64,000 nucleotides of DNA from Methylobacillus caricis (GTDB lineage Bacteria; Pseudomonadota; Gammaproteobacteria; Burkholderiales; Methylophilaceae). Location of the stretch: positions 124,001 through 188,000 of the forward strand of contig NZ_JAJAVD010000003.1 in assembly GCF_020532705.1 (NCBI RefSeq). Reading direction: 5' to 3'. This document shows positions 12,103-27,256 of the stretch, piece by piece. Position numbers and translations under genes: made by a program. Position 1 is the first letter of the stretch. Every line of letters starts with the position of its first letter. Below the pieces are notes generated by a model. The model saw nothing but the letters and a program-made list of their open reading frames with translations. It did not search any database and had not been told where the DNA came from.

Positions 12103-12163
12103 GGCCGTGAACGCTAGGTTTCGCGGGGAAATCGCGTCACGGGCTTTGCGGGAATCGCTGGAA

Positions 12164-12192
12164 GTACCCCCAGTTGTACCCCCAAGGGGGTA
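12164..12192. repeat. TACCCCC repeats near the left island end (candidate integrase arm sites)
   Basis: GTACCCCC at 12164-12171 and 12176-12183, and the inverse GGGGGTA at 12186-12192. Similar motifs sit between the integrase gene and the right junction. Arm-type integrase sites at both ends are expected for a lambda/P4-like element; binding is inferred. Confidence 0.4.
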
Positions 12193-12348
12193 TCGGGATG
12201 ATAGATCAGTCCGCATGCTGGTGCCAGCGCTGCACCCGATGGGATAAAACGGTTATGGCGCAGACCGCATTGTTGGCTGACGCCTGGAACGGTACGCGAT
12301 GAGATGCAGGGGAACGGGCCGCCGTGGCCCAGACCTCGGAGAACTCTC

Positions 12349-13491
12349 ATGACAGACCATCACACCCGCCACAACCCGCTGGGGCAAGACGCCCTGTTCA
12401 CTACACCAGCTTCGCTCATGCTCGATGCCCGCCTCACGCCGCTGGAGCGCAATGGTTGGCAGGTTCTGCGCATGCTGCGCTCTGCGGAGGGCATCAGCCC
12501 GCTGGCGAATCTGGGACAGTTGCGCCGCTATCTCACCTCCACCCCGCTGGGGCAGAGGGCCGGGTACGAGACGGCCCGGCGCGTCCTCGTCGTGCTTCGG
12601 CTGACGGGGTGGATCAGTCTGGTGGGGCAGCACCGCGACCCTCTGACCGGTCATGTGCTCAGCGAGCTGTATCAGGTTCACGAAAGCGCCCTGGACTTCC
12701 AACAAGCCTGCGCGCTCGATGCCAGTCTGTCCGCGCTTCTGCAAGCCTCCATCGGCCACGAAAACAACCAGGTGGATCGGGTGGCTGTCCACATTCAGGC
12801 AGCGCTAGCGCAGGCACCTGAGGTCGCCTCCATTGCGACCCACGATCAGCGCCACGATGACGATGATTTGCCCCCTACGCCGCCGTCGCAGGCGAGCGAG
12901 GCAGCCGACCCACTGCCATTGTCTGGCGATTCCTCCGGCAGCACGCTTGTTCCGCAACAGACCGGGCACGCTCGCCACATGACGGCTGAGCAGGGCGGTA
13001 CGTATAAGACGTATATGTATAAAAAAGAACGTACGTACCGCGCGCGCGAAGGCGACGGCGATCCGGCATCTCAGTCGGTGAGCTTGCCGCCTTGCCTGAG
13101 CAATGCCCAGGCAGATCAGCAAAAGGACGTGCAGGCCGCCTTGCGGCGGCTGCCGCCGCAGCATCGCCAGGAGGTGCTCGACGAGTTGCAGGCACGCAGC
13201 CAGAGCGGCGCCGTGCGCAATGTCGTGGCCTACTTCTTCGCGTTGGTGAAGCGCGTTTTTGCGGGCGAATTCCGCCTGTGGGCAGGTCGCAAGGAGACGT
13301 CTGCCGCGAACCGGCCTACAACTCCGCCGCGCACCGAAGCCCGCCCGGAACCGACTGCGCCACCCGCATCGCGTGAAACTGCCCTGGCGCACATCGCCAA
13401 CATCCGCAAGATGCTGAACGCCCCGACGAACGCTGGGGACATCGCAGCGCAGGCAATGCAGGCCAGGGGATGGCAACCGCATCCTGCGTAG
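12349..13491 (+). CDS. STY4528-family pathogenicity-island replication protein
   Basis: 380 aa from the ATG at 12349 with a GGAG ribosome-binding site. The N-terminal half (LDARLTPLERNGWQVLRMLR, LGQLRRYLTSTPLGQRAGYETARRVL, LTGWISLVGQHRDPLTG) matches what I remember of the STY4528 family, found in the replication/maintenance module of SPI-7-like integrative elements and ICEs. It has a helix-turn-helix flavour. The middle is low-complexity with the word GGTYKTYMYKKERTYRARE, and the C-terminus is a charged region (VVAYFFALVKRVFAGEFR). Its usual partners (ParA-like, DnaB-like, conjugation genes) are absent, so it is probably a stranded piece of an ICE. Confidence 0.75.
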   Translation: MTDHHTRHNPLGQDALFTTPASLMLDARLTPLERNGWQVLRMLRSAEGISPLANLGQLRRYLTSTPLGQRAGYETARRVLVVLRLTGWISLVGQHRDPLTGHVLSELYQVHESALDFQQACALDASLSALLQASIGHENNQVDRVAVHIQAALAQAPEVASIATHDQRHDDDDLPPTPPSQASEAADPLPLSGDSSGSTLVPQQTGHARHMTAEQGGTYKTYMYKKERTYRAREGDGDPASQSVSLPPCLSNAQADQQKDVQAALRRLPPQHRQEVLDELQARSQSGAVRNVVAYFFALVKRVFAGEFRLWAGRKETSAANRPTTPPRTEARPEPTAPPASRETALAHIANIRKMLNAPTNAGDIAAQAMQARGWQPHPA

Positions 13492-13494
13492 CAA

Positions 13495-13620
13495 ATGCTG
13501 CCGCAAAACGCGGTCGTCACTGCACGCCGCAGTGACGACCCGCGCAACACCGCCAACAATGCGGGCGAAAGCCAGTTCCTATTGCGTGCGGCCTACATGA
13601 TGATGGCCGCCCTAAACTGA
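13495..13620 (+). CDS. Possible 41-aa small protein downstream of the STY4528-like gene
   Basis: ATG at 13495, 3 nt after the upstream stop; 41 codons to TGA at 13618-13620. The peptide reads MLPQNAVVTARRSDDPRNT and ends in LLRAAYMMMAALN. The spacing suggests coupled translation. No family is recognised, and a perfect 12 bp stem lies inside the frame, so this may be fortuitous. Confidence 0.3.
   Translation: MLPQNAVVTARRSDDPRNTANNAGESQFLLRAAYMMMAALN
13512..13540. repeat. Strong 12 bp hairpin
   Basis: GGTCGTCACTGC (13512-13523) and GCAGTGACGACC (13529-13540) are perfect reverse complements around the loop ACGCC. No T-tract follows, so it is not an obvious intrinsic terminator. It lies just after the replication-type gene; a role in termination, replication or transfer is only a guess. 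Confidence 0.6.
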
Positions 13621-14039
13621 CCGGGCAGTTGCCAAGACCGATGGGCTTCGTACATCGGCAACCCCAACAGCGCAGGTTCCTGCAAGCGCAGGCCCGACAG
13701 GGTGGAGCCTTCTTCGTCTGTTTGAACTCATCCCTATCGCGCCGCCTGGCGCACGGTCCTTTGCAGCAATTGCCTGTGCGCGACGCACAGGGTTCCCGCT
13801 GCATTTCTCATCCCACTCACTTCATAGGAGGACTTGTCCACGTTCACATCACTTTCGTCTTGTAGTACCTCCGTCCGGGCTTCCAGCAGGGAGCAAGACG
13901 GACGCCTCATTTGAGGCTCTGGTGTCTCCTGAACACCATGCCCTTGCCCTCACGGGATCTCGCCTTGGCGAGCTGGCACCAACACTAACCACTGAATTTC
14001 AGGACAACGCAGTACGGCGCTTTGCTTGGAGGCCGGAAG
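13621..14039. other. Non-coding region with successive hairpins before the Integrase_1 gene
   Basis: No convincing gene in 419 bases. Inverted repeats: CCGATG/CATCGG around 13638-13658; TCCGTC (13870-13875) with GACGGA (13897-13902); GCCTCA (13904-13909) with TGAGGC (13912-13917), a 2-nt loop; GGTGT (13921-13925) with ACACC (13933-13937). Three adjacent stems in about 70 nt suggest a structured RNA or DNA element. An AGGAGG at 13826-13831 has no start codon at proper spacing. Confidence 0.45.
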
Positions 14040-14903
14040 ATGGACGACTTGACCTACTCCCTGCGACAGCTCTGCCAGCGCAACCGTGACGGCAGCTACA
14101 CCACGCAGGCCGACCGGATGCGTTCGCTGTCGCTGGCCGCGCGGCAACTGCGCGAGGCCGGTTTCCGGCAGATGAAGGCGTCGTCACTCAAGGGCAAGCA
14201 CGCCCAGGCGCTGCTGGATCGCTGGCAAGGCGAAGGTTTGTTGTCTGGCACCATCAAGAATCGGCTCTCTCATCTGCGCTGGTGGGCCGAGAAGATCGGC
14301 AAGGCCGGCATCCTGCCAGCGGACAACACGCAACTCGGCGTGGCCGAGCGCCGCTATGTGACCAACGTCAGCAAGGCCCAAGCACTGGGCACAGGTCTTG
14401 AACAGGTCACCGACGCGCACGTACGCATGAGCCTTCAGCTACAGGCCGCCTTCGGATTGCGTCGGGAGGAAGCGATCAAGTTCCAGCCCAGTTACGCGGA
14501 TCGGGGCGACCACATCGCCCTCAAGGGATCGTGGACCAAGGGCGGTCGGGAGCGAACTGTGCCCATCACAACGACAGAGCAACGCGACGCGCTCCACGCA
14601 GCACACCGCCTGGCGGGCACAGGATCACTGATCCCGGCAAACAAGACCTACATCCAGCAGCGGCACGTCTACGATGGACAGTGCAAGGCGGCGGGTCTGA
14701 GTTATATGCATGGCCTTCGCCATCAGTACGCGCAAAGCCGCTATGAGGCGTTGACGGGGAGGCCGCCGCCTGCGGCAGGTGGACCATTAGTCACGGAGTT
14801 AAGTCCAACGCAGCGCATAGAAGACCGCCATGCTCGTCAGACCATCAGCCGTGAGTTGGGACACGAGCGCGTTCAAATCACTGCCATCTACCTCGGTAGC
14901 TAG
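14040..14903 (+). CDS. Tyrosine recombinase with Integrase_1-type catalytic domain
   Basis: 287 aa from the ATG at 14040, preceded by GGAGG at 7 nt spacing; an upstream TTG (14022) is less likely. The N-terminal SAM-like domain (residues about 1-110) binds DNA. The catalytic domain has Arg in FGLRREEAIKF, HGLRHQYAQSRYE as the HxxR box, GHERVQITAIYLGS with the final His and Tyr. Proteins of this type ride in ICEs beside STY4528-like genes and are distinct from the main integrase. The C-terminus looks complete. It ends 48 nt before the convergent DUF262 gene. Confidence 0.8.
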   Translation: MDDLTYSLRQLCQRNRDGSYTTQADRMRSLSLAARQLREAGFRQMKASSLKGKHAQALLDRWQGEGLLSGTIKNRLSHLRWWAEKIGKAGILPADNTQLGVAERRYVTNVSKAQALGTGLEQVTDAHVRMSLQLQAAFGLRREEAIKFQPSYADRGDHIALKGSWTKGGRERTVPITTTEQRDALHAAHRLAGTGSLIPANKTYIQQRHVYDGQCKAAGLSYMHGLRHQYAQSRYEALTGRPPPAAGGPLVTELSPTQRIEDRHARQTISRELGHERVQITAIYLGS

Positions 14904-14951
14904 GTCAGGCAGTATGAGACCCCTGGCCTACATACACAGCCGTCCACCGGC

Positions 14952-16667
14952 TCAATCTGCAGGCCCAACAAACGTATTCAGCGCCGTTGCAATCCTCTTG
15001 CGTCGCTCAAGCAAGAAAGCCTTGTAGCTTCCCACTTCCAGCAGCGATGCCTCAACCGGGATGCACTGTGCTGCGAACGCTGGCTCGCCAAGCTGGCCCA
15101 CCAGCGGGGGCAGGTAAACCGCCGGGGCCTTGTCGCTGATCGCGCGATTCGTCTTGCCGCCGATGAAGGCCAGATTAGCGATGTCATCCGCCTCGCGGGC
15201 AGTGAAGCTGGTCTTCAGTACGGCTTTGGGAAAGATGTGATGGAACTGCAAGCGATGCTGGGCGCCCGAATGATCCAGAGCAATGGTCAGATGACTGCGC
15301 CAATCTTTCGCACTGGCAGCGCGGAAAGCCAGGAACATGGTCTTGAACAGCGCGCTGCGCTGGTTGCGGCCTTCCAGTTCCTCCGCGGTAATGTCCAGGC
15401 GGCCGAACTGCAGGCGCAGCCGGTCGATCAGCTCGCTCACTGCTCCGCCCTGACGAATATTTGCCAAATCCTGATCCAGAATGGTTTCGCTGGAGCCTCG
15501 GGAGAAGCGGCCTTTGGCATTGGCCATCAGCGCCCAGTAGCGCAGTTGGCGAGCCTCGTCGTTGCTCAGCGCATAGTTGCGGCTATGCCCGAAATACGCC
15601 AGCACCACCAGCAGGAAAGGCGACGACAACAGTGCCGGGCTATCGATGCCCAGATTGCTACGCAGGAAGTTGAGCGCGAATTCCATGCCATCGCAGGCTT
15701 CTTTCCATGCCTTCTGCAGCTTCTCCACATTCAGGCTACCCACGATCTGGAAACGTGATTGACCGGTGGCAAACGCCATCAGGTTCTTCAGGTGCAAACC
15801 GAGATCGAGGTCAAAGCCCGTCTTGGCACAGGCCTTCTGAAAATCCTGGAACGTCTGCAGCGAGTGCCGCCACTTGGCGGTGATCTGCGCCAGAGCCAAG
15901 TCGGAACTGCGCAGCTTGGCTCCCAGTGAATTGACCCGGACGAAGATTTCCGTGACCTCATCGTAGGAAAGCGTCCGTTCCAGTACATCCATCCGATAAA
16001 CGTACTTGCGGATGCCACGTAGCCGGGCCAGGCGCTGGCTGTACTTCTCGTAACGAGGATCGTCAAAACCACTGATGCCCGCACGTTTGAGGAACGGCGC
16101 ATCGTTGTCGGTCTTGAACACTTCCGACACTTTCACCCAATGCGGCAACTGCTCCAGCTTCCTCGTGGCCACCACGAAAGTCATCTTGTTGAAGCGCTTG
16201 AGCAGTTCGTCCTCGGTCGAGTCCGTCTCATCGCCAATCAGTTCGCTATCGTCGTCAACATCGTCCTCGTCGTCGCCGTTCTCTTCCACTTCGGTCACGA
16301 CCGCCAACTGGTCGGGATGTTCCAAGTTGAACAGCAAGTCGATAGGCCGACGACGGCCGCGCACCGATACTGGCTCGCCGCGAATGACGGCAGAGAGCGA
16401 TGTCAGACGCTGCTGACCATCCAGCAGAAGCCGCGTGCTCTGGTAAGGATTCGTGCTCTGGCTGACCGCGAAATCCTGCAGCGGCACAGCTTCATCCGTT
16501 TCCCAAAGCAGGATTGCGCCCGATGGGTAGCCGCGATACAGCGAATCCAGCAGATCGCGCACTCGCGTAGAACGCCACACGTACTGGCGCTGCATCTCCG
16601 GCAAGCGCAGTTCGCCGCGCTCGATCATGGATACTAGCTCTTCAACGCTGGCTTCGGCCTTGGCCAT
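14952..16667 (-). CDS. DUF262 / HNH nuclease-like protein of a restriction-linked operon
   Basis: 571 aa. The N-terminal DUF262 domain (ParB/Srx fold, as in GmrS, BrxU and SspE) has RLPEMQRQYVWRSTRVRDLL at residues 21-40 and the nucleotide-binding DGQQR at 83-87. A very acidic stretch (residues about 126-155) interrupts the domain. The C-terminal part has QFHHIFPKAVL (about 474-484) followed by FIGGKTNRAISDK, an HNH-type (DUF1524-like) nuclease signature. This combination is typical of modification-dependent restriction nucleases. ATG at 16667 with AAGGAAC ribosome-binding site. Last gene of the operon, 61 nt after the TrlF-like gene. Confidence 0.8.
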   Translation of the reverse strand: MAKAEASVEELVSMIERGELRLPEMQRQYVWRSTRVRDLLDSLYRGYPSGAILLWETDEAVPLQDFAVSQSTNPYQSTRLLLDGQQRLTSLSAVIRGEPVSVRGRRRPIDLLFNLEHPDQLAVVTEVEENGDDEDDVDDDSELIGDETDSTEDELLKRFNKMTFVVATRKLEQLPHWVKVSEVFKTDNDAPFLKRAGISGFDDPRYEKYSQRLARLRGIRKYVYRMDVLERTLSYDEVTEIFVRVNSLGAKLRSSDLALAQITAKWRHSLQTFQDFQKACAKTGFDLDLGLHLKNLMAFATGQSRFQIVGSLNVEKLQKAWKEACDGMEFALNFLRSNLGIDSPALLSSPFLLVVLAYFGHSRNYALSNDEARQLRYWALMANAKGRFSRGSSETILDQDLANIRQGGAVSELIDRLRLQFGRLDITAEELEGRNQRSALFKTMFLAFRAASAKDWRSHLTIALDHSGAQHRLQFHHIFPKAVLKTSFTAREADDIANLAFIGGKTNRAISDKAPAVYLPPLVGQLGEPAFAAQCIPVEASLLEVGSYKAFLLERRKRIATALNTFVGPAD

Positions 16668-16728
16668 GGTTGTTCCTTATTGCGTCATTCTTATCAAAGC
16701 GAATCTTGTGGATCAAACGGCGACGTTA

Positions 16729-19575
16729 TCAAACATCTTTACCTAAGCGCTGATAACGCCGCTCAAACGCCTCTTCACCACCCTCCATCACCTGGCAGAC
16801 TTCGCTGCGCATAGACTGATTCTGTAATGAGCCGGTCTGCTTCACATGGCACTGATGGTTGAAGTCCAGCACGTGGATCAGCTCTGCATCACCATTGACC
16901 ACGATGTTGGGGTTATGGGTCACGATAATGAGCTGACGGCGCAGTTTGTTGCTGCGAATCTGCTGAACCACCAGTCCGTAGATTAGGTGGTTGTCCAGAT
17001 CGTCCTCGGGCTGGTCGAGCACCAGCGGCTCTTTGCCATGGGCTAACAGGAAGGCCAGCATGGCGGCTGCACGCTGACCGGCTGAAGCCTGGCCAATGGA
17101 TTGAAAGTCCCGACCATCGCCCTTGCGGCTGTATTCCACCTGCAAGCCGTCTTCGGGGAACCAGCACAAGATGTGGTCGGTAAACTCGGGGCGCTTGTCG
17201 GCTTCAGCTTTCAAGAATTTGTTGAACCAGCCACCGAACTCCGCGTTACCACGACATGCCTGCACCAGACGCCTTTTCTGGGCCAGTAACGCCTGCTCGA
17301 AGGCTGTCGCGTCCCGTGTTCCCGGCTGCTCGACAAGATCAACAGCGACCAGCAGGTCTGCCACGAGGCCCTTGGGAGGGGCACTATCCTGTTCCTGGTA
17401 CAGGTCATCCACGTATTTGCCGTCGGCAGCCCCGAGCACTTCCCGCAACGAGCGCTCGATGCCCTGCGCATCTCGGCTGTAAGGAATCAGTTCGATCCGC
17501 ACAAAGGGATTGATTTGGAGCGTTTCTTGAAGGAATGCGCTGCGTTGCGTGCTGATGGCACGGCGGGCGGACTGCACCTGCTCCAGTAGCGCTTTGGCTT
17601 TTTCGCGCAGGTCGGCGTGTTGCTTCTGCAAAGTCTCCAGCCGCTTGAGCTCGGCCTCCAGCCGCTGCTTTTCCTGCACCAGATGGCCGTACTCATTGGG
17701 ATCGCTGACGCCCTGTTGCTGCAAATCGGTCTTAAGCTGATCGTAGGCTGCTTTGGCCGCGCCGATCCGCGCAAACCAGGGCGATGCTTCGAGCTCTCCT
17801 CGTAAGGCTTGCCCGCGCTCCTGCAACGCGACAGCCGCGTTCTCGACCTCCTCCCTGGCCTTGCCGATGGACGCGTGCAACGCCTCCATGAGTGTGAGTG
17901 CAGGACGATCTTCGTCGGCATCGAACAGCCCTTCAGCCAAGTCTTCTGCCAGTAAGTCTGCAGCAACGTCCTTCAAGCGGACAGCCAATTCGGAGGATGC
18001 TTCAAACTGGCGTTCCAGCTCGCGACTTTGCCGGTTGCTGCGCTGGTAGTTCTTCAGCACCGCTGCATGGTCGGCGCCCTCGAAGCGGGCCAGCTTGCGC
18101 TGGATGTCTTGCAGAGAAATCGTCAACGACTCGCGGCCTTGCAGCTTGCCTTCCAGATCGCGCATCTGCGCCCGAGAGGCTAGAAAAGCACGTTTGGCCT
18201 CCTCGAAGGCCGCTTGCTGCGATTGTGTGCCAGCCGCATCGTCGATCACCTTCAGCAGCGCCTGCTGGCTGTCGCCAGCCAAGGCCGCGATCTGCCCCTG
18301 GCTGAACAAGCGCACCGGAAACCGTTGTTCGGTGATGGCCTGGCTGGCCGAGGGCTTGAAGCTGTCTGCGGCGGCATCCCATTCCTCCACCGCATGCCCT
18401 TGGCCGTCCTGCCGCCAGATCAGGCGATAGGACGTGCCATCGCGATGCACTTGCACGTAGAGAGCTGTCTCCGTGCGCAGGCCGCCTTCGTCGCTGCGAG
18501 TCTTGGCGACCTTGTTGAATCGGTTGAAGGTTTGCCCGGCTTCTGAGGCGGACGACAGCTCCTTTTCCCGCCTATAGGCCAGGCGTAGGGCATGCACGAC
18601 GGTCGATTTACCAGTGCCACGCCCACCGATCAGGGCATTGAAGTAGGGATTTAGCGGCAAGCTGGCGACCGTTCTTCCCCGCCCCATGTAGCGCGCGTCG
18701 CGGATTTCAATCGACTCGATAAAATGCTCTGGCGTATCGAAAGGGGCGAAACCGCTGCTCTCATCGCTACGCCGAACGGAGACCTCTTGCCCATCCAGCA
18801 ACGCAAGGCGCAAGCCTTCCAAGCTGGGCGTGGCCATTTTGATCCAGGTGTAGCGTGAACCGGGAACGGCAACTCCCTGAAAGCTGTGGCAATCGCTGCC
18901 AACCACGTTGGCGAAGCGCAGTTTTAGTTCGTCCAGCACCATCGGTGCAGGACTCGTGGATGCTGCCCACTCCAGAGCCAAAATGCCAGGTTCCTGCAAT
19001 ACCTGCTTGACCGTAGTGGTATCCAGCAAGCATTTTCGTGTGCCGGGCTCGACCTGCAGCAGTCCCTTATCACTCTCGACGTGTGCCGGAATAGCAAGAC
19101 CACCCGTCGCCAGAATGCGCTCCACCACCTTGGCTGCCCCTTCGCGGGTAACACCATCACTGTCGCCGCGCGTGCCGTCGTAGTCCGCCCTCGCCAGCAG
19201 ATCGCTGATCGTTTGGCTGGTGGCAGACGGGTCGAAGATCGCCAACAGATGAAAACCGCCCTGTACCGAGATTTCCACGCCGGGGAACAGATGCAGTTCA
19301 CGAAAACCGGCAGGCGCCGTTCCGGCGTCGGCGTCGTGCTTCATGTCCGCATAAGCCGCCTTGAGCTTGTCGATCCATTCGCCCGTGTTGTGGTCGGTGA
19401 TCGCCACGCAGTCGATTCCGGCTGCCATGTACTTGAGCAGCCAGGTCAGCGGCGTCAGCTCGTTGGACGTGCCGATGACGGCTTGCCAGGCACCCGTGTC
19501 CTTGGAGGCAGGGGTATGGGTATGGAAATCGAACTTCCACCAGCGTGCGCCGGGATAAGGCCAGGGTTGGCTCAT
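16729..19575 (-). CDS. TrlF-like PHP-domain / SMC-type AAA ATPase
   Basis: 948 aa. Residues 1-270 are a PHP phosphoesterase domain with metal-ligand candidates H18/H20 (DFHTHT), H62 (TDHN), E101 (GVEIS), H165 (PAHVES) and D228/H230 (GSDCH). Then Walker A GGRGTGKST at 317-325, a long coiled coil (about 450-700), a signature-like SAGQRAAAML (about 828), Walker B LVLDQPEDDLDN (851-862) and an H-loop THNPN. The architecture resembles proteins annotated TrlF, which accompany type I restriction loci. Likely an ATP-gated nuclease or phosphoesterase; the target is unknown. AGGAGA ribosome-binding site; 65 nt after hsdMS. Confidence 0.8.
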   Translation of the reverse strand: MSQPWPYPGARWWKFDFHTHTPASKDTGAWQAVIGTSNELTPLTWLLKYMAAGIDCVAITDHNTGEWIDKLKAAYADMKHDADAGTAPAGFRELHLFPGVEISVQGGFHLLAIFDPSATSQTISDLLARADYDGTRGDSDGVTREGAAKVVERILATGGLAIPAHVESDKGLLQVEPGTRKCLLDTTTVKQVLQEPGILALEWAASTSPAPMVLDELKLRFANVVGSDCHSFQGVAVPGSRYTWIKMATPSLEGLRLALLDGQEVSVRRSDESSGFAPFDTPEHFIESIEIRDARYMGRGRTVASLPLNPYFNALIGGRGTGKSTVVHALRLAYRREKELSSASEAGQTFNRFNKVAKTRSDEGGLRTETALYVQVHRDGTSYRLIWRQDGQGHAVEEWDAAADSFKPSASQAITEQRFPVRLFSQGQIAALAGDSQQALLKVIDDAAGTQSQQAAFEEAKRAFLASRAQMRDLEGKLQGRESLTISLQDIQRKLARFEGADHAAVLKNYQRSNRQSRELERQFEASSELAVRLKDVAADLLAEDLAEGLFDADEDRPALTLMEALHASIGKAREEVENAAVALQERGQALRGELEASPWFARIGAAKAAYDQLKTDLQQQGVSDPNEYGHLVQEKQRLEAELKRLETLQKQHADLREKAKALLEQVQSARRAISTQRSAFLQETLQINPFVRIELIPYSRDAQGIERSLREVLGAADGKYVDDLYQEQDSAPPKGLVADLLVAVDLVEQPGTRDATAFEQALLAQKRRLVQACRGNAEFGGWFNKFLKAEADKRPEFTDHILCWFPEDGLQVEYSRKGDGRDFQSIGQASAGQRAAAMLAFLLAHGKEPLVLDQPEDDLDNHLIYGLVVQQIRSNKLRRQLIIVTHNPNIVVNGDAELIHVLDFNHQCHVKQTGSLQNQSMRSEVCQVMEGGEEAFERRYQRLGKDV

Positions 19576-19640
19576 GTTCTTCTCCTGATTGGGGCCATCA
19601 TTTCCTCCGCCTTAATCTCCGACCCAAAAAACAAAACGCA

Positions 19641-21674
19641 TCATGAAATGCTCAAGGAAGGGGATGCTTCTCGAATAGCGAGCAATTTTTCAATCTGATT
19701 TTTGATCTCCGAAACAATTTCTGCGGATGAAGTGATACCAAAACCGATCTCTTCCCCAATGGCTTTCAGCTTATCAGCGGCATCCTTCGCAAGGATTCCC
19801 CGAACAATGCTTCGCTGCTCGTCAATGGATGGCAAAGGGATGAGAATCTTCTTTAGGTCGCTTTCGTCCAACGTAACGTTTGTGGCCCCGCACATCATTG
19901 GTACTAAAAGTTCATCTTTGAACTTCGACAAGTACTCGTGGATATATCTCATCTCCACTTCTTCTGGGTTTTTTACTTCGAGGCAACACATCGTATCTGC
20001 GAGAGCAAACCTTCCCTCCTGATAATGGAGACGCTTAATGTCAGCCTTGCCGTGCCCAGAAGATGATACAAGTGGTATGCAACTCGCCTTGAAGTCAAAG
20101 GAATAATCGGCTGATGTTTTTCTATCAGTCGCGGGGACCACAAGTGGAAAGTCTCCGGGCGGAGAACTCATGTTTGAGTGTTGTCCCCGATGGATATAGC
20201 AAATCTCGCCCAGCTCTCTCGCGCCAGGCATACGCTGTCGAAGCTCCTGAAATGTTCTCTCGAGCATGTACCACCGACCAACTAAGTGGCATCCGGCTGA
20301 CGCAAGAATGTGCTCTCTTTTAACTGTGATGAAGTTCGGTCGTGAGAGATTTTGGACACTTTCCAACTGATTACGCTTAAATTTTTCAATTAAGTCCAAC
20401 GCCGCAGGTAGCTCGTTCTCATCAACTGCTTGCCTGGTATCTGTCTGCGTATACCCATCAGCACCAATATTTATAAAAAGGACATCATCGAGACCCTTGG
20501 CTATCCCCTTGTCGATAATCAAGATATGAGTTTTAACGCTGGCGTACGGCTTGAATACACCATGAGGCAATTCAACGACAGCAATTAGAGACTTTTCTTG
20601 AATTAATCGCTTTCGCATTCCAACGTAGGCTGATTGACCGACAAAAACGATACCTTCGGGTACAACCACTCCTGCCTTCCCTGTGGGCGACAAGTGTTCA
20701 GCGATGTAGTCAAGAAAAAGCAATTCGGCTCGTTTTGACTGCAGGCTAAATTTTTTATGTGGCTTGATTCCACCCTTCGGCGTCATAAACGGCGGATTGG
20801 CCAATATCGTATCGTAGCTCTCTTTCCAGTGATCCTCTTGAGTTAACGAGTCATACTCTTCGATCAACGGGGACCGGAATCCATGCAAGTAAAGATTTAC
20901 CAATGAGATCCTCACCATATCCGGCGAAATATCGAATCCCTTAATGTTTTCATGAACTCTTTGGCGCTCCGTCGGGGTCAGAAGACTCCCGCTATAGTGC
21001 ATTGGACTCTCAATTGATGTTTCTGCGACTGAAGCACCCTGTTGTAGTTGCCAGCCACTTCGCTCTTCGATTGGCGAGTTCTCTCTAAGGATGTGTTTGT
21101 ATGCGGAAATTAGGAATCCAGCAGTGCCGCAAGCCGGGTCCAAAACTCTGTCGTTTTTTTTCGGCCCAACAGCTCGAACCACGAAATCAATAATGTGACG
21201 AGGCGTGCGAAACTGGCCGGCATCGCCCTGGCTGCCCAGCACCGACAGCAGGTATTCGAAGGCGTCTCCGAGTCGCTCGGAGTGGTCATAGGAGAAGCCG
21301 TCGATTTCCTTCAGAAATGCCTTGAGCGTTTCCGGGTCGCGATACGGCAGGTAAGCGTTCTTGAAGATGTCGCGGAACAGTGCAGGCAAATGCGTGTTCT
21401 CAGTCATCTTGCCAATGGCTTCGGAGTAGAGGTTCAGCGTATCCTGACCACCCATGTTGGGTGCCAGCAGTTTGGTCCAGCTATATTTCTCGAAGCCATT
21501 GACGAAAAAGCTGCGCTTGCCGCCAAACTCTTCGGATTGCGCGTCCATGTCGTCCATGAACTTGTAGATAAGCGCGATGGTGATCTGCTCGACCTGGCTT
21601 TTGGGGTCAGGCACCTTGCCGACAAGGATGTCGCGGCAAGAGTCGATTCGGCGTTTGGTGTCGGTATCCAGCAT
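19641..21674 (-). CDS. hsdM: Type I restriction DNA methyltransferase fused to a specificity domain (HsdM-HsdS)
   Basis: 677 aa. HsdM part: N-terminal helical domain (1-150), SAM motif DPACGTAGF (179-187) and catalytic NPPF (293-296), making N6-methyladenine. From about residue 484 the chain continues as one HsdS target-recognition domain (ARELGEICYIHRGQHS, SSSGHGKADIKRLHY, MMCGATNVTLDESDLKKI, PLPSIDEQRSIV) and a short C-terminal helix. No separate hsdS exists, so specificity must come from this single domain. Codons up to about 163 are GC-rich like the neighbours; the rest is AT-richer, suggesting a recombinant gene. It starts 47 nt after hsdR. Confidence 0.9.
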   Translation of the reverse strand: MLDTDTKRRIDSCRDILVGKVPDPKSQVEQITIALIYKFMDDMDAQSEEFGGKRSFFVNGFEKYSWTKLLAPNMGGQDTLNLYSEAIGKMTENTHLPALFRDIFKNAYLPYRDPETLKAFLKEIDGFSYDHSERLGDAFEYLLSVLGSQGDAGQFRTPRHIIDFVVRAVGPKKNDRVLDPACGTAGFLISAYKHILRENSPIEERSGWQLQQGASVAETSIESPMHYSGSLLTPTERQRVHENIKGFDISPDMVRISLVNLYLHGFRSPLIEEYDSLTQEDHWKESYDTILANPPFMTPKGGIKPHKKFSLQSKRAELLFLDYIAEHLSPTGKAGVVVPEGIVFVGQSAYVGMRKRLIQEKSLIAVVELPHGVFKPYASVKTHILIIDKGIAKGLDDVLFINIGADGYTQTDTRQAVDENELPAALDLIEKFKRNQLESVQNLSRPNFITVKREHILASAGCHLVGRWYMLERTFQELRQRMPGARELGEICYIHRGQHSNMSSPPGDFPLVVPATDRKTSADYSFDFKASCIPLVSSSGHGKADIKRLHYQEGRFALADTMCCLEVKNPEEVEMRYIHEYLSKFKDELLVPMMCGATNVTLDESDLKKILIPLPSIDEQRSIVRGILAKDAADKLKAIGEEIGFGITSSAEIVSEIKNQIEKLLAIREASPSLSIS

Positions 21675-21693
21675 TGTGTTGTTCTTCTCACTC

Positions 21694-21710
21694 GGCTGCC
21701 TAAGGCAGCC
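21694..21710 (-). repeat. Hairpin between hsdR and hsdMS
   Basis: GGCTGCC (21694-21700) and GGCAGCC (21704-21710) form a perfect 7 bp stem with a 3-nt loop in the 47-nt intercistronic gap. No T-tract follows on the minus strand. It could tune mRNA stability or the ratio of nuclease to methylase; this is inference. Confidence 0.45.
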
Positions 21711-21721
21711 TCAGAAATTAC

Positions 21722-24268
21722 TTACATGAATTGATTCAGAGGTACGTAGTCTTTGACGTACTCGGGTATGCCTTCGCGCCACTCGGGCGGCACGGCGCGC
21801 AGGTCACCCACGCCAAAAGCCGGGTTGACGTTCAGCTCGCCAAAACGCTTGTCGTCGATGATGGCGCGCAGGGCCGCGTCGGTGGAATACGCCTTGAAGA
21901 AGTACTTCATCGCCAGCACCGCTGTACCCTGGTCTTCTGTCAGCTTGCTTTGGTTAGCGAGCAGGAACTCCTGGAACTCGTCTTCCAGCAGCTCGTCCTT
22001 GCTCTTGAAGTACGGGATCAAGCCGAAGATTTTCTGCAGGATTTCCTTCAGGCTCAGGCGACGATCCACACCGGCTGCGCGCCGCAGCTTGTCCAGGTTG
22101 AAGTACTCGTTGGGTTTGTCGAACAGGTGGCTGGTCACGTAGTCGATGGCCAGCTCCCATTGCTCGCTTTCCACCTGCTGTTGCAGCGTGGGGTCGGCCT
22201 TGACCTGATCCTCGAATTTTTCGAAGAACATCCGGTCGATCTTCATGCCTTCGTAGCCGATTTGCTGCTCGGCCACGTGGAACATGGCATCGGTGCCGAT
22301 GTGCTCGTACATTCCGCCCGTTGGTGGTGGCTCGCCTCCCTGGCCGTCACTCTCACTGCTACGCGCCGGCAGCTTGAGCACTTCGTCGTAGTCGAACTTC
22401 TCCTCAAAGTACTCACAGTTGGCGAAGAAGTCGAAGAACTTGAAGCGGACCTTCTCGGGCTCATTGACCAGCGGCTTCAGATCGTTATCGAACAGCTGTT
22501 CAAGAAAGTTGTGCTTGCGCGTGCCGCGCCCCTTGATCTGCACGAAATCGGACGGCGAGTACACCGGCCGTATCAGCGCGAGATTCAGAATGTCCGGGCA
22601 GTCGTAGCCGGTGGTCATCATGCCTACGGTGACGCAGACCCGCGCCTTGCTGGTCTTGTACAAAGCGTTGAAGTTGGCCGAGCCCAACAGGTTGTTGTTG
22701 GTGAAATTGATGGTGTATTGCTGGGCGTCCGGCACGCTGGAGGTCACTTGCACCGCGAAGTCTGACTGATACTTGCCAGGCCACAGTACGTCCGCCAGTT
22801 CGTTCAGGATTTGGGTCAGCTTGGTGGCATGGTTTTGGCTGACGGCGAACACTAGGCCCTTACCGAACTCACCAGTTACTGGATCACGCAGGCCGTTCTT
22901 GATGAAAGTCTGGCCAAACAACTCGTTGGTCGCCTTGGAAAAGAATTTCTTCTCAAAGTCCTTGGAGACAAAGCTTTGCTCCTGCTGCCCGTCCTCACCA
23001 GCCGGTGCCATCACGGCATAGCCCTTCTCGGCCAACAGTTTTGTGGTGATGTCGGTTCGGGCATCTACCACTACAGGATTGATCAGGAAGCCGTCCTTGA
23101 CGCCATCCAACAATGAATACCGAAAGGTCGGTTGCCCGGAGTCGCAGCCAAAGGTGCGGTAAGTGTCCAGCAGCAGGCGGCGTTCCTGCTCTCGTGGGTC
23201 GCGGGTAGTCGGCTTGCTGGCATCAAAGCTCTTCAGATAGTCGCGGGGCGTTGCCGTCAGGCCCAGCTTGTAGCCAACGAAATATTCGAAGACAGCACGT
23301 GCATTACCGCCGATGGAGCGGTGTGCCTCATCGGAGATAACCAAGTCGAAGTCCGTGGGCGAGAACAGGCGCTGGTACTTGTTGTTGAACAGCAGCGATT
23401 GCACCGTGGTGACCACGATCTCGGCCTTGCGCCAGTCATCGCGGCGTTCTTTGTAGATAACCGTGGCGTAGTCGTTCTTCAGGTAGTCCTTGAATGCCTT
23501 CGCTGCTTGATCCTCCAGCTCCAGCCGATCCACAAGGAACAGCACGCGGCGGGCGTTGCCGGTGCGCAGGAACAGTTTGATAACGGCAGCAGACGTCAGA
23601 GTCTTGCCGGTGCCGGTCGCCATTTCGAATAGAAAGCGTGTCGATCCTTCAGCCGCCGCGTCCTGAATCGCGTTGACCGCTTTTTTCTGATAGTCGCGCA
23701 GAAATCGGAGCTTGTTCTTCGCGATGAAAGCCGGACGTTCGTCAGCGTTAATCCAGCCCGCTTCTTTCTCGTAACCCGGCTGCTGAGTCTGGACGATGTA
23801 ATCGCGCCCGACGGCTTCGGTGATCAAGCGCTTCTGATCAGGTTCGAACTTCTGATAGCTCTTGAGCGAGTCCGGCGTCGGGAAGGCGGTGATGATGTGC
23901 GGATTGCCCTGCTGCAGGTCCCAGAAGTAGTGTAGGTTGCCGTTTGACAAGATCACGAATCGGCAGTTGAGCGACTTGGCATACTTTCGCGCCTGCTCCT
24001 TGCCGACCAGCGGGTTCTTGTCTTCGGACTTAGCTTCCAGCACCACCAACGGAAAGCTCTTTTCATCTAGCAGTAGAAAGTCAACAAATCCGTTCTTGGT
24101 CGATTCGAAGTTATCACCCAGATCGTTGATCTGATCCAGGCTGAGCTTGACGTTCGGCTCCAACGTTACGTTCGCCTTGCCCTTCGCATTGTTGAAGAAC
24201 TGCCAGCCGGCACTCTCCAGCAGTTTGTTGATCTTGATGCGTGCTTGCGCTTCCTTCGCGTTCGCCAT
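21722..24268 (-). CDS. hsdR: Type I restriction enzyme R subunit (DEAD/DEAH translocase-nuclease)
   Basis: 848 aa from the ATG at 24268, chosen for its GGAGG ribosome-binding site at 6 nt. The N-terminal PD-(D/E)XK nuclease has D63 and E78-A-K80 (GFVDFLLLDEK, VVLEAKSED). Helicase motifs: Walker A MATGTGKT (216-223), DEAH in ISDEAHRSIGG, and motif VI IKGRGTRKHNF. The C-terminus is an EcoEI-type R-subunit domain. All catalytic residues are present, so the enzyme looks active. It works with HsdMS to cleave DNA lacking the cognate methyl mark. Its start lies 1 nt after the stop of the 29-codon ORF. Confidence 0.92.
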   Translation of the reverse strand: MANAKEAQARIKINKLLESAGWQFFNNAKGKANVTLEPNVKLSLDQINDLGDNFESTKNGFVDFLLLDEKSFPLVVLEAKSEDKNPLVGKEQARKYAKSLNCRFVILSNGNLHYFWDLQQGNPHIITAFPTPDSLKSYQKFEPDQKRLITEAVGRDYIVQTQQPGYEKEAGWINADERPAFIAKNKLRFLRDYQKKAVNAIQDAAAEGSTRFLFEMATGTGKTLTSAAVIKLFLRTGNARRVLFLVDRLELEDQAAKAFKDYLKNDYATVIYKERRDDWRKAEIVVTTVQSLLFNNKYQRLFSPTDFDLVISDEAHRSIGGNARAVFEYFVGYKLGLTATPRDYLKSFDASKPTTRDPREQERRLLLDTYRTFGCDSGQPTFRYSLLDGVKDGFLINPVVVDARTDITTKLLAEKGYAVMAPAGEDGQQEQSFVSKDFEKKFFSKATNELFGQTFIKNGLRDPVTGEFGKGLVFAVSQNHATKLTQILNELADVLWPGKYQSDFAVQVTSSVPDAQQYTINFTNNNLLGSANFNALYKTSKARVCVTVGMMTTGYDCPDILNLALIRPVYSPSDFVQIKGRGTRKHNFLEQLFDNDLKPLVNEPEKVRFKFFDFFANCEYFEEKFDYDEVLKLPARSSESDGQGGEPPPTGGMYEHIGTDAMFHVAEQQIGYEGMKIDRMFFEKFEDQVKADPTLQQQVESEQWELAIDYVTSHLFDKPNEYFNLDKLRRAAGVDRRLSLKEILQKIFGLIPYFKSKDELLEDEFQEFLLANQSKLTEDQGTAVLAMKYFFKAYSTDAALRAIIDDKRFGELNVNPAFGVGDLRAVPPEWREGIPEYVKDYVPLNQFM

Positions 24269-24269
24269 C

Positions 24270-24359
24270 TCAGGCCTCCCCCTCCGCTGATTCACCTTGA
24301 GAACCCAGCTTCAGGTTCTGCGCGCAGGCGTATTCCAAAACCGCCAGGAATTTGAACAT
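24270..24359 (-). CDS. Coupled 29-aa small ORF between fic and hsdR
   Basis: ATG at 24359-24357 overlaps the fic stop as TAATG; the TGA at 24272-24270 is followed after one base by the hsdR ATG (TGAGATG). The peptide starts MFKFLAVLEYACAQNLKLGS and ends in an acidic Glu/Ala tail. It contains the GGAGG used by hsdR. Fused junctions on both sides are the usual sign of a real gene or of a shrunken remnant of a larger one. No family recognised. Confidence 0.5.
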   Translation of the reverse strand: MFKFLAVLEYACAQNLKLGSQGESAEGEA

Positions 24360-25420
24360 TAGCTTCGCCCCTCTGCCTTGATCTTTAACCACTTCGCACC
24401 TCGCCCCTTGCCAGTCGATTCGATCAACCCCTCTGATTTCATCGCTCGCAGCACTAGTCGAACCATGTCCCGGCTCACGCCCGGGCAGGCTTCTTCAATC
24501 TCGGAAATCGAGAACGGCAGGGTGCGCCCCAGAACTTCCGTCCGCACTCGGTCGCCTTTGCTGCCACGTCCCCGTTCGATGGTGCCGACACGCTCCTCGA
24601 ACTCACGGTAGGCCCGTAGCAAGGCACCCCAGAAGTAGTCGAGCCAGGGCTTTACGTCGTGCTGCCCCTGGTGCCAGCCCTGCGAGCTGGCTTCCAGCGT
24701 TTCGTAATAGCCTTCCTTGGTGTCCTCGAAGATGCGTTCCAGACTGATGTAGCGGCCCACGGCATAGTCGAAGTGGTAGAGCAGCAGCAGGGTCAGCAAA
24801 CGGGACATGCGACCGTTGCCGTCCGGGAAGGGGTGGATGCACAGGAAGTCGAGCATCGCCAGCGGCACCAGTACGAGGGGGTCGGCCAGGTGCTGATCCA
24901 GCGCGGTGGCGTAGCGCCCAGCCAGATCGGTCATAGCCATGGGTGTGAGGTGCGCAGCGACCGGCTGGAAGCGTAGACGTGACGTGCCGTCCGGGTGACG
25001 TTCGATGATGTCGTTATTGGTAGCCTTCCAGCGCCCGCCCGCCTGCGGCATATAGCGGTACAGCAGGGTGTGGAGTTGCAGCACTACGCCCTCGCTGAAG
25101 GGCATGTGCGCGGCCGATTCGTGGATCAGCGCCAGGGCGTCACGGTAGCCGGCGATCTCCTGTTCGGAGCGGCTCTTTGGTGTTGCGTTGCGGATGACCA
25201 GAGACTTCAGCCGCGAAGGCGCTACGACAACACCTTCCAGCCGGTTGGACGACTCGGTGGACTCCACCACCGCGATCTGGCGTAGCCCCTTGAGGGCTTC
25301 GGGCGACTGCGCAGCGTAGAGTTGCTGCTTACCCTGGTATTCGCCCAGTGTGCGCAACGTGGCGGCCTGAGTGCCATCGAAGCGAAGCGCGGCAAGGTAC
25401 TCGGGTGTGAGCGAGTGCAT
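24359..25420 (-). CDS. Fic-family AMP-transferase with C-terminal winged helix
   Basis: 353 aa from the ATG at 25420; a longer frame from TTG 25564 lacks family similarity. N-terminal helix with the inhibitory motif S58-N-R-L-E62-G63, then the Fic core with canonical HPFPDGNGR at residues 196-204, and a C-terminal winged helix (about 290-350, ISEIEEACPGVSRDMVRLVLRAMKSEGLIE). Catalysis would be transfer of AMP (or another nucleotide) to a protein, held in check by Glu62. It is first in the operon leading to hsdR, so it may regulate or guard the restriction system, or bind its own promoter. Full length, all key residues present. Confidence 0.88.
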   Translation of the reverse strand: MHSLTPEYLAALRFDGTQAATLRTLGEYQGKQQLYAAQSPEALKGLRQIAVVESTESSNRLEGVVVAPSRLKSLVIRNATPKSRSEQEIAGYRDALALIHESAAHMPFSEGVVLQLHTLLYRYMPQAGGRWKATNNDIIERHPDGTSRLRFQPVAAHLTPMAMTDLAGRYATALDQHLADPLVLVPLAMLDFLCIHPFPDGNGRMSRLLTLLLLYHFDYAVGRYISLERIFEDTKEGYYETLEASSQGWHQGQHDVKPWLDYFWGALLRAYREFEERVGTIERGRGSKGDRVRTEVLGRTLPFSISEIEEACPGVSRDMVRLVLRAMKSEGLIESTGKGRGAKWLKIKAEGRS

Positions 25421-25443
25421 GGAAATGTAAGCCCAGACTGTGT

Positions 25444-25642
25444 AAATGGGGTAATCATAGCTCTTAAATGGGGTATTGTCTCTAAAAATGCCTCTTTTCT
25501 GGTGTTTGACTACCCCATTTCCTGAACATTGGACCGGTCGTGAGAGGCTGGTATGGCCGACCAAGAAGGAAATGAGCTATATGAATCTAAAAAGGGTAAT
25601 AAATTAGAAATTACCCCATTTAATCCATTATTTACCCCATTT
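25444..25642. repeat. Five-copy TACCCCATTT repeat array upstream of fic
   Basis: AAATGGGGTA at 25444-25453 and 25466-25475; the inverse TACCCCATTT at 25511-25520, 25612-25621 and 25633-25642. Spacing within each pair is 21-22 bp, two helical turns. The array fills the 346 bp gap between fic and the integrase, which otherwise contains no gene. Likely operator sites for the fic operon; the winged helix of Fic is a candidate reader (inference). Confidence 0.65.
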
Positions 25643-25766
25643 TCCAGCGCCCAGCCTTGGGCAAAGGCAAATGGCAAGGGAACGGCACTCAAGGGACAAC
25701 GGCCCTATCCAGAAAAGGAAAAGGCCGCCCTGTCCATCCGTTCTGCAACACTCAGCCAACTCTTCC

Positions 25767-26978
25767 CTATGCGGTGCCGCTGTCCTCCGCCGCACTCAGA
25801 TAGTCCGCCCAGTCCTGCAACAGCGTCCTTCTCTGATCCAGCAGCAGCGCCTTGTTGTACGTCGCCCGCACCTTGTTGCTTTCCACGTGGGCAAGCTGCC
25901 GCTCAATCGCATCAGGCCGGTATCCGTTCTCATTGGCCCAGGTTGAAAAGGTCGTCCGCCAGCAATGCGGCGTCGTGCCCCGGCCCAGGTTCATGTCGCG
26001 CATCGCGTAGGTGAGCCGGTTGGGCGTAGTGAAGCCCTTTCCGCTTCGGTGTGGAAACAGATAGCGCCCGCCACCCGTGATGTGCTGCAAGTCTTTCAGC
26101 ACCGCTATGGCCTGCGTGGACAACGGGCTGACATGGTCACGCCGCGCCTTCATCTTCGCCGCAGGCCGACGCCACAATGCATCCTCAAAGTCGAACTCGT
26201 CCCACTCGGCATCCGCCGCTTCCCCTGGACGGCAGGCGGTCAGCGCAATCAACCGCAGACACAAAGAGGTTTCCGGATAGCCCCGGTAGCCGCACAACTC
26301 CTGATAGAACTTCTGGATTTGCTCACGCGTCATCGCAGCCTTGCTCTCGCTGGCCGGCACGCGCAGCAGCCCGCGTAGGGAGGGAATCGGATTGGCCTCA
26401 ACCAGCCCCCGCACCACCGCGAACTCGAAGATTGCCGAAAGATCGCCTTTGACGTGGATGGCCGCCCACGCGCCATGTGCCTTGCATTCCTCCAGCAGCG
26501 GGCGAATCTGCTTCACGCCAATGCCGCTCATCGGCAACCCATCGAACTTGGGCGACAGGTACTTCCTGATGCGGGATTCTTTCGTGCGGTAGGAACTGAG
26601 CGCAAAGACGGGCTTGATCTCCGCCAGGTACGCTTTCGCCACCTTGGCGAACGAGCTTTCCTTTGCGCGCTTGCGTTCCTCCAGCACTTCCAAGTTGCGC
26701 TGCTTGACCTGCTGCCGCTCATGCGCAGGGTGGATACCTTGCTTGACCAAGGCACGCGCTTTCTCTCGGGCCGCACGCGCCTCCGCAAGGCTTACTTGAG
26801 GAAAACCGCCAATCGCAAAGAGGTTCTCCTTGCCCTGCAGGCGGTACTTCCACCGCCAGAGCTTGCCACCGGCGGGCTTGACCAGCAGGAACAGGCCCCC
26901 GCCGTCTGAAAGTTTCCAATCTCGATCAGTCGATTTGGCCGACCTGACCTTGAAGTCGGTGAGTAGGTTTTCGGGCAT
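25767..26978 (-). CDS. int: P4-type tyrosine integrase
   Basis: 403 aa. N-terminal DUF4102 arm-binding domain (LSDGGGLFLLVKPAGGKLWRWKYR), core-binding SAM-like domain (about 105-200), and catalytic domain with Arg in TACRPGEAADAEW, HCWRTTFSTWANENG as the HxxR box, AHVESNKVRATYNKA with His and the nucleophilic Tyr. It sits at the island's right end, about 280 bp from the junction, reading inwards, as is normal for P4-like islands. It is the likely driver of insertion, though the ddl-type target is unusual because these integrases mostly use tRNA genes. Confidence 0.92.
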   Translation of the reverse strand: MPENLLTDFKVRSAKSTDRDWKLSDGGGLFLLVKPAGGKLWRWKYRLQGKENLFAIGGFPQVSLAEARAAREKARALVKQGIHPAHERQQVKQRNLEVLEERKRAKESSFAKVAKAYLAEIKPVFALSSYRTKESRIRKYLSPKFDGLPMSGIGVKQIRPLLEECKAHGAWAAIHVKGDLSAIFEFAVVRGLVEANPIPSLRGLLRVPASESKAAMTREQIQKFYQELCGYRGYPETSLCLRLIALTACRPGEAADAEWDEFDFEDALWRRPAAKMKARRDHVSPLSTQAIAVLKDLQHITGGGRYLFPHRSGKGFTTPNRLTYAMRDMNLGRGTTPHCWRTTFSTWANENGYRPDAIERQLAHVESNKVRATYNKALLLDQRRTLLQDWADYLSAAEDSGTA

Positions 26979-27002
26979 CGTTGGACTCCACTGCGGGGAA
27001 AA

Positions 27003-27044
27003 GTACCCCCACGGTTGAACACGAGTACCCCCAACGCTACCCCC
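27003..27044. repeat. TACCCCC repeats near the right island end (candidate integrase arm sites)
   Basis: GTACCCCC at 27003-27010 and 27025-27032 and CTACCCCC at 27037-27044, just upstream of the integrase start. The left-end cluster at 12164-12192 carries the same core. Interpreted as integrase or excisionase binding sites; also possible promoter control of int. Confidence 0.45.
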
Positions 27045-27245
27045 GAATTTTTCAGACCTCGATGAACAATAGGAACGCTCAGCAGACCGTATTGTTTCTG
27101 CAACCCATTGATTTAAAACAGGTCAATCCGTCCACCAAGCGCTACTGAGCGCCACCGAGATCCAGCAAAAATCGTCAGACGTTGATCACACATTTAAACG
27201 AGAAAGCCAAGTTTACTGCTGTGCGATAGCTGGCTTCATCATGTA

Positions 27246-27256
27246 CTTTGCTGACC
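27246..27256 (-). repeat. Right terminal inverted repeat of the island
   Basis: Minus-strand GGTCAGCAAAG starts directly after the codon for the last Ddl-like residue (SSVG). It matches the left-end GGTCGGCAAAG (12092-12102) at 10 of 11 positions in inverted orientation. Confidence 0.4.

Follow-up and report, generated by a model that had tools for sequence, protein, structure and literature searches.

A fic gene with conserved upstream repeats heads restriction cargo in an integrative element of Methylobacillus caricis

The locus and its genes

The locus described here lies in a 64,000-nucleotide stretch of the Methylobacillus caricis genome (contig NZ_JAJAVD010000003.1, positions 124,001 to 188,000; hereafter the window), in which a minus-strand operon, headed by a fic gene and continuing with type I restriction-modification (R-M) genes, trlF and a DUF262-HNH gene, sits inside an integrative element. 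It is probable, in our judgement, that the locus consists of an element chassis, an operator-fic control unit and replaceable restriction cargo, and that Fic represses both itself and the cargo. The large genes of the operon are as follows (TRD, target recognition domain).

24359-25420 from its ATG, minus strand: Fic protein with a C-terminal wHTH-like region (PF02661)
21722-24268, minus strand: EcoAI-like HsdR with its ATG at 24268, in a GTG frame that starts at 24295 (HSDR_N and ResIII)
19641-21674, minus strand: fusion of HsdM with a half HsdS that has one TRD (N6_Mtase and one Methylase_S stretch)
16729-19575, minus strand: TrlF, a PHP-like N-terminus with an SMC/ABC-type ATPase (NF045780)
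14952-16667, minus strand: DUF262-HNH protein, a single-chain GmrSD-like (HEC-05-like) enzyme (GmrSD_N, HEC-05)

All five large frames are open and intact. A first-pass annotation had placed five large genes and one mini-gene on one strand with gaps of at most 65 nt; the five frames do share the minus strand, with intergenic gaps of 47-65 nt, although 90 nt separate fic from the hsdR ATG. The gene families that it named (Fic, HsdR, HsdM-S, TrlF and DUF262) were borne out by Pfam, NCBIfam and PADLOC, and the HNH part by reading of the translation. HsdR has HSDR_N and ResIII above the Pfam cut-off, scores 228.6 bits against the EcoAI-type equivalog of NCBIfam (under its cut-off of 550), and shows EAK, GTGKT and DEAH, which we take to be its motifs. 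HsdM scores 47.5 bits against the NCBIfam hsdM equivalog, under the cut-off of 242.75, with DPACG and NPPF, presumably its conserved motifs, intact; since Pfam finds a single TRD match in the fusion, its HsdS part is a half-S variant. TrlF reaches 652 bits against an NCBIfam TrlF cut-off of 350 and matches the PADLOC Ppl profile at E 3.6e-138, whereas its 526.8 bits against the anti-phage protein Ppl (NF042955) fall short of the 1000 set for that model. What we take to be the PHP-like metal sites, Walker A, signature and Walker B of TrlF are intact in the translation. The DUF262 protein scores 100.8 bits with PF03235 (GmrSD_N) and matches PADLOC HEC-05 at E 9.5e-50 and the DUF262 protein in PDB 7p9k at E 9.4e-16. 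Its translation carries QR, DGQQR and FxxxN, motifs given in the consulted portion of PMC11411939, and an HNH-like HHIF...N stretch; Pfam returned no DUF1524 or HNH match in this protein, and the HNH part therefore rests on reading the translation.

Pairwise ratios of nonsynonymous to synonymous substitution (dN/dS; 1-4 relatives per gene) are about 0.04-0.11 for the five genes, indicating purifying selection. The operon does not belong to the MADS systems by score (89.6 bits for MAD2 against an NCBIfam cut-off of 720), and among the PADLOC matches listed the mad genes appear just as mad2 and mad3 cross-matches. For ten proteins of the window, the matches listed contain no PglZ, BrxC, HmaB or HmaC, and those to BREX and Hma are weak cross-matches (HsdM to PglX, HsdR to HmaA).

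An integrative element with constant ends

The first-pass annotation had spoken of a mobile island, and the island can now be bounded at 12,085-27,195 from the flanks in a sister species (genome G001), the halves of a split ddl gene and a second copy in another family's genome (G1029).

12085-27195, no strand: integrative element of 15.1 kb inserted in ddl (contiguous flanks in G001, ddl pieces, G1029 copy)
11691-12084, minus strand: 3' half of the split ddl (PF07478 matches 69-175 and 177-203)
27196-27832, minus strand: 5' half of the split ddl, with a 197-aa frame at 27239-27832 (Ddl N-terminal domain)
12304-13491, plus strand: 395-aa open reading frame (ORF) belonging to the constant left end (without a Pfam match)
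14022-14903, plus strand: second integrase, left end (Pfam Integrase_1 / Phage_int_SAM_2)
25767-26978, minus strand: tyrosine integrase, constant right end (Pfam)

In the sister species the two flanks adjoin (8462-8058 and 8061-6878 of locus L127) with a 4-bp overlap, and because they are contiguous there, the insert corresponds to 12,085-27,195. The PF07478 matches at G000:C3:135684-136089 correspond to 11,684-12,089 of the window, and the 5' half of ddl has a 94% identical stretch in the sister species, whose ddl match is reported to contain one TGA. A second ddl with an open frame is present elsewhere in the same genome (contig C4). The two junction stretches that we compared for attachment-site (att) repeats share no 10-mer.

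Both ends of the element recur in G1029. The left end matches window positions 12,081-14,785 at 90% DNA identity and the right end positions 24,389-27,188 at 91%, with the tyrosine integrase 96% and Fic 97% identical to those of the window. Between the two ends, no DNA of G1029 matches the window, and the genes there encode, among other products, a 668-aa ATPase-like protein, a IIG-type methylase and a PLD/SNF2 helicase. Since the same ends enclose different cargo, the element amounts to a chassis whose cargo can be exchanged; the type I R-M genes, trlF and the gene for the GmrSD-like DUF262 enzyme are cargo of the element, and fic belongs to its constant end. The element edge in G1029 (L182 18833-19900), and likewise the fic unit in locus L156, comes immediately after a ychF-like 3' end, which belongs to a presumed ychF whose protein ends in NFLFNV. 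The ychF-like 3' end may be the primary integration site and ddl a secondary one used in the window.

Fic and the repeats upstream of its gene

The Fic translation contains HPFPDGNGR and SNRLEG, so that the inhibitory (S/T)xxxE(G/N) helix motif is present; this helix and the active site both seem undamaged, and the protein may also be a latent AMPylator. It is near-identical to the protein in PDB chain 8uqu (matched across residues 1-346 at E 1.9e-226), for which we found no paper naming 8UQU in a search that left out preprints and most subscription papers. The C-terminus is conserved, and PDB matches to Fic regulators span the Fic domain, with the HTH part itself unmatched. A second Fic-domain match occurs in the same genome (G000:C1:1571988-1572188).

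Homologues of Fic (E up to 1e-60, own genome included, samples that may overlap) are present in 7/398 genomes of the phylum sample, 7/369 of the class sample and 22/365 of the order sample. Ten of 50,697 phage records match Fic, all below 60% identity, and three pattern matches in viral contigs include no relative. We compared 36 loci, including the window and four plasmid matches. A broken copy (L100) and a locus without annotation (L104) were dropped before the repeats were counted, as were L099, L113, L114 and L117, which are shorter versions of L130, L128, L129 and L131; the fic starts of L115 and L116 were set by hand for the spacing count.

The region upstream of fic in the window has the following features.

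25445-25641, no strand: operator-like array with sites at 25445-25454, 25467-25476, 25510-25519, 25611-25620 and 25632-25641
25454-25482, minus strand: sigma-70-like promoter match GAGACA-17-TATGAT, interleaved with the proximal operator-like sites

All four exact WTWCCCCATT sites of the window lie in this array, together with one that has a single mismatch, and all five occurrences of AATGGGGTA in the window fall within 25301-25800. Exact TACCCCA/TGGGGTA repeats are found no more than 150 bp before the fic start in 16 of the 18 loci with at least 55% Fic identity (two or more in 12 of the 18), in none of the 18 loci below 55%, and in 0.8% of other 150-base stretches. Under a looser pattern, successive ACCC-type sites of the same direction are 20-22 bp apart in 14/18 spacings. 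Among the repeat-free genes below 55% identity the association is looser: those of L130 and L131 are embedded in type I loci, and those of L168 and L169 adjoin matches to HsdM or HsdS. On three Gram-positive plasmids (L101-L103), none of the annotated genes around fic is a restriction gene.

Genes behind fic

Of the 18 loci at or above 55% identity, nine have recognised defence genes following fic.

Window: type I R-M
L089: HsdR fragment only
L153: PLD/SNF2 helicase and IIG-type methylase
L154: DruE-like protein with DpdE/DrmD-like helicase and a TrlG-like protein
L155: cargo as in L154, inferred from common gene sizes and junction
L156: type III res-mod
L157: DrmD-like helicase, TrlF-like ATPase and AbiU-like protein
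L159: Wadjet JetA and JetC
L161: MmeI

The cargo thus includes type I, type III, MmeI, Druantia-like, DISARM-like and Wadjet kinds. At the 3' end of fic, its stop and the next start overlap, reading TAATG in the window and L161, TGATG in L157, ATGA in L153 and TTGA in L159, and a short gap without overlap follows fic in L089, L154, L155 and L156. DNA homology between the window and L154, L155 and L156 is limited to the fic unit (from 25,492-25,525 to 24,383-24,389, at 86-92% identity), and that with L153 likewise ends at 24,389. The operator-fic unit of L155 is preceded by an RHH-like gene and the initial codons of hsdR, an arrangement that looks like an alternative join of operator-fic and an RHH-headed operon. 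The occurrence of fic with the same DNA signals before different defence genes suggests a portable control switch.

Scars of a replaced regulator and a deleted trlG

Closely related operons in Novispirillum (L012) and on the Escherichia coli plasmid pL37-4 (L088) allowed three short segments between the large genes to be read.

24270-24359, minus strand: 29-aa ORF, the 3' remnant of a 62-aa RHH-like regulator gene
19576-19640, minus strand: gap at the position of the HEPN-like gene of L012 (PF18735, below cut-off)
16690-16736, minus strand: scar of a deleted trlG, a start codon and about 12 codons followed by the DUF262 leader

The 29-aa ORF had been taken for a mini-gene. It begins with an ATG that overlaps the fic stop (TAATG) and ends one base ahead of the hsdR ATG (TGAGATG); alignment with the two relatives identifies it instead as the 3' end of the 62-aa RHH-like gene (Pfam RHH_5, below cut-off) that opens the R-MS-TrlF operon in both. 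It aligns to the L012 protein with a score of 29, compared with 12 for the best of 200 shuffles and 18 for the best of about 2000 random window stretches, and to the L088 protein with a score of 25, compared with 13 for the best shuffle and 14 for the best random stretch. By eye, the two relatives have a promoter-region stretch before the RHH gene in common; a pattern made from it finds no match in the window at up to three mismatches.

The order in L012 is RHH, R, MS, HEPN-like gene, TrlF, TrlG, DUF262, with identities to the window of 95% for HsdR, 87% for TrlF and 88% for DUF262. By-eye comparison with L010, L012, L014, L017 and L025 revealed the trlG scar, which indicates that TrlG once stood behind TrlF here and that the tight TrlF-DUF262 spacing is due to its deletion. 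The HEPN-like gene follows MS in L012 and L133 (47% identical) and is absent from the window, where it may have been lost or never present. In L132, a 226-aa gene after the R-MS pair (12064-12744) shows no BLAST relationship to the HEPN-like gene that L012 and L133 have there, and this slot, too, may hold exchangeable genes. L088 has R-MS-TrlF, with TrlF intact, without DUF262, Fic or an intact trlG, and its HsdR is 90% identical to that of the window. The TRD is 86% identical to that of the window in L088, 87% in L013 and 26% in L012, and given the first of these values the target site may be common to L088 and the window.

Neighbourhoods of TrlF

One scan of genome contigs gave 197 relatives of TrlF, of which 80 loci were counted; 39 of these have less than 5 kb of sequence on one side. 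A first tblastn search finds close homologues only. TrlG directly follows TrlF in 67 of the 80. The operon neighbours are type I R-M in 12 loci, Hma in 12, BREX in 9, Hma and type I together in 1 and none recognised in 46, under a strict rule by which L014 (with M-S) and L009 (with HsdR nearby) were scored as none. Methylase or specificity genes peak one position before TrlF (21/77) and partner genes two positions after it (20/76), and both peaks drop to 0-2 at a distance of five genes or more. DUF262 stands two genes after TrlF in 8/76, and TrlF-TrlG-DUF262 occurs in 8/80 loci, with an M-S fusion ahead in L012, L013 and L014; HsdR is seen ahead of M-S in L012, the contigs of L013 and L014 being cut. 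In eight loci TrlF-TrlG lies between pglX and pglZ within BREX. Fic is near TrlF in none of the 80, and a weak Fic-like ORF in L076 is 13 ORFs from TrlF on the opposite strand. R-M, TrlF and DUF262 are therefore modules that co-occur rather than parts of a fixed system. Among 60 genomes of close relatives, beyond the window's own TrlF, four gave matches of about 110 residues or less.

The first-pass annotation had proposed one undescribed composite system, to be checked by a survey for a recurrent gene order. The survey recovered such an order for TrlF-TrlG-DUF262, yet never Fic with TrlF, and TrlF is found equally in BREX and Hma operons; these counts led us to reject a fixed five-gene system.

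Proposed organization of the locus and its alternatives

Taken together, we propose the following organization. The chassis comprises the 395-aa ORF and the Integrase_1 gene on the left and the tyrosine integrase with operator-fic on the right. A dimer of Fic-wHTH would bind paired TACCCCATT sites overlapping the fic promoter and repress its own gene, and the cargo would be repressed as well through a common transcript and stop-start coupling, relayed here by the 29-aa RHH remnant; once repression is lifted, the entire operon would be raised. Restriction of unmethylated DNA may be carried out by HsdR with two M-halfS chains, whose site is probably symmetric and bipartite; modified-base phage DNA that escapes the type I R-M system may be cut by the DUF262-HNH enzyme, and TrlF, as an ATPase-gated PHP protein kept without its usual Schlafen-like partner TrlG, would probably guard the R-M complex. 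Such a guard role is modelled on the logic of PrrC and RloC. It also follows the logic of PARIS, as conveyed in the available part of PMC12839542. The layered restriction envisaged by the first-pass annotation fits the gene families and, within the accessible accounts, published embedded pairs such as TgvAB.

The conserved repeats, the sole promoter-like match and the stop-start overlaps with varied cargo make a regulatory role for Fic, which the first-pass annotation had offered as one of several options, the best supported, and judging from these sequence features Fic-wHTH is most likely an autorepressor governing the operon behind it. More tentatively, and at somewhat short of an even chance, Fic-wHTH and its TACCCCATT operators may constitute a portable, AMPylation-capable immunity controller that is placed before varied defence operons, replaces their own regulator and is coupled to them by stop-start overlap, with the AMPylation state sensing infection or a new host and switching the cargo.

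Several observations weigh against this organization. Half of the 18 Fic loci lack recognised defence cargo: L129, L158, L162, L163 and L164 have unrecognised ORFs behind fic (that of L158 begins 458 bp off), in L115, L116 and L160 no gene on the same strand follows it immediately, and L128 is at a contig end. L115 and L129 carry looser repeat forms only, and shared ancestry accounts for part of the repeat conservation, chiefly among loci of at least 90% identity. The end of a DNA match near fic is uninformative about a unit in the more distant loci, and both element ends could be shown in only one other genome, G1029. The single sigma-70-like match in 14000-27300 compares with a shuffle mean of 4.0 and is weak evidence alone. 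The probable guard role of TrlF is drawn from family logic and position, and 46 of the 80 TrlF loci have no recognised methylation system in their operon; a Pfam scan of 29 unlabelled neighbours of TrlF, chosen by hand, returned mostly metabolic or housekeeping families, so that some TrlF loci stand outside methylation-based systems. Finally, the dN/dS values may largely stem from the time before trlG was lost.

Alternatively, the five proteins may form a single composite defence system in which they act and are selected jointly. The shared strand, small gaps, intact frames and purifying selection would agree with this, as would the order M-S, TrlF, TrlG, DUF262 in L012, L013 and L014, with HsdR ahead in L012. 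We regard it as very unlikely, however, given the absence of Fic near TrlF in the 80 loci, the presence of fic before unrelated cargo elsewhere, and L088, which has R-MS-TrlF without DUF262 or Fic, the other listed plasmids matching the same part of the query alone. A decaying cargo, with TrlF and some of the operon left over and being lost, is likewise very unlikely; three genes of L012 are indeed missing or reduced here (trlG, the RHH regulator and the HEPN-like gene), but the remaining frames are intact with dN/dS of 0.04-0.11, and on the L088 plasmid, too, TrlF is intact where trlG is not.

Ordinary stacking in a defence island, with Fic a stand-alone gene at the element end by chance, is unlikely, although not far-fetched. 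Defence islands cluster by nature, TrlF is found in many contexts, and several Fic homologues have no defence genes behind them. Chance would not readily account for the overlap of the fic stop with the starts of different defence genes, the lack of a further promoter-like match in 14000-27300, the position of TrlF-TrlG between pglX and pglZ in eight BREX loci, or a native RHH regulator gene truncated at its 5' end precisely at the fic junction. A less doubtful, still rather unlikely alternative is that Fic serves chiefly as a toxin for abortive infection that stands guard over the R-M genes and, by AMPylation, harms infected cells when the operon is disturbed. The intact Fic and inhibitory motifs would allow this, PADLOC includes SoFic and Fic-matching candidates, and CccR is both toxin and regulator in the available account (PMC9755527). 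On the other hand, no separate antitoxin gene was noticed at the locus, and the repeats and the swapping of cargo favour regulation first.

Comparison with known systems

The hsd locus of Vibrio cholerae VPI-2 with TgvAB, and RloF of Campylobacter, place a DUF262 protein in a type I locus, as far as PMC11411939 and PMC4619093 were accessible, and for TgvAB complementarity of the embedded GmrSD-like pair and type I R-M has been proposed (PMC11411939). The locus in the window resembles these in combining a type I core and a DUF262 protein; it differs from them, as described there, in that its single DUF262-HNH protein is HEC-05-like and encoded at the 3' end, HsdM and the half S are fused, TrlF is present and fic stands at the head. 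With the TRL operon of Photorhabdus (trlR, trlF and trlG; PMC7554251, in the portion consulted) it has the TrlF family in common by the curated model, whereas trlG persists here only as a scar, TrlF sits in a restriction operon, and trlR was not seen, no sequence search having been made for trlR. The window's TrlF also differs from Ppl, whose cut-off it does not reach. The Schlafen-like RNases that occur in BREX and Hma ('BR') systems (PMC12839542) are likewise an accessory pair in methylation-based systems, and our TrlF survey agrees with the spread of Schlafen-histidine-kinase proteins over BREX and related systems reported in the accessible part of that account. RptR-linked loci (PMC12255303, excerpted) have an ATPase/RNA-binding pair between hsdS and hsdR, of which just TrlF would remain here; we infer that this pair is TrlF-TrlG, the name TrlF being absent from the available portions of PMC12255303 and PMC12839542.

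For the Fic-HTH protein CccR, repression of its own promoter by way of inverted repeats is described (PMC9755527, in the part available). Fic of the window resembles it in having a Fic domain, an inhibitory helix, repeats at its own promoter and a putative, wHTH-like C-terminal HTH, whereas the repeats of CccR differ in sequence and are 10-bp inverted repeats with a 26-bp spacer and CccR, as far as that source describes it, is a secreted effector rather than the head of a restriction operon.

If the proposed organization is correct, a regulator that travels apart from its systems and has a protein-modifying enzyme domain would explain how cargo can be exchanged with control retained; the control of dangerous restriction systems during movement from host to host is an open question. 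BrxR and CapW are portable regulators of defence operons. Like RptR (PMC12255303, in the excerpt available), they are small autoregulators ahead of restriction operons, as we propose for Fic, which belongs to another protein family and appears to possess an AMPylation active site as well. The case also calls for caution, in that a 'composite system' recognised from one operon may be a chassis with cargo and scars.

Distribution of the operon and genes beyond it

Some DNA match to a 10.9-kb query was found in 62 of 72,556 plasmid records, 52 of them from Escherichia, mostly spanning R-MS-TrlF at 81-82% identity; 78 of 5,426 E. coli genomes have a DNA match, always on plasmids. In L010-L013, L015 and L017, a conserved gene set lies 3' of TrlF-TrlG-DUF262 (L012 15828-22719), with members of 145, 419, about 917-1084 and 287-292 aa and one of 246-356 aa on the opposite strand. 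Three L012 proteins of this set were scanned with PADLOC and matched nothing; in L012 the member of about 917-1084 aa has a weak AAA_21 match and that of 287-292 aa is a DUF7281 protein. A second TrlG-like protein, besides the one behind TrlF, is encoded inside the hsd operon of L010 (3790-5832), L015 and L017.

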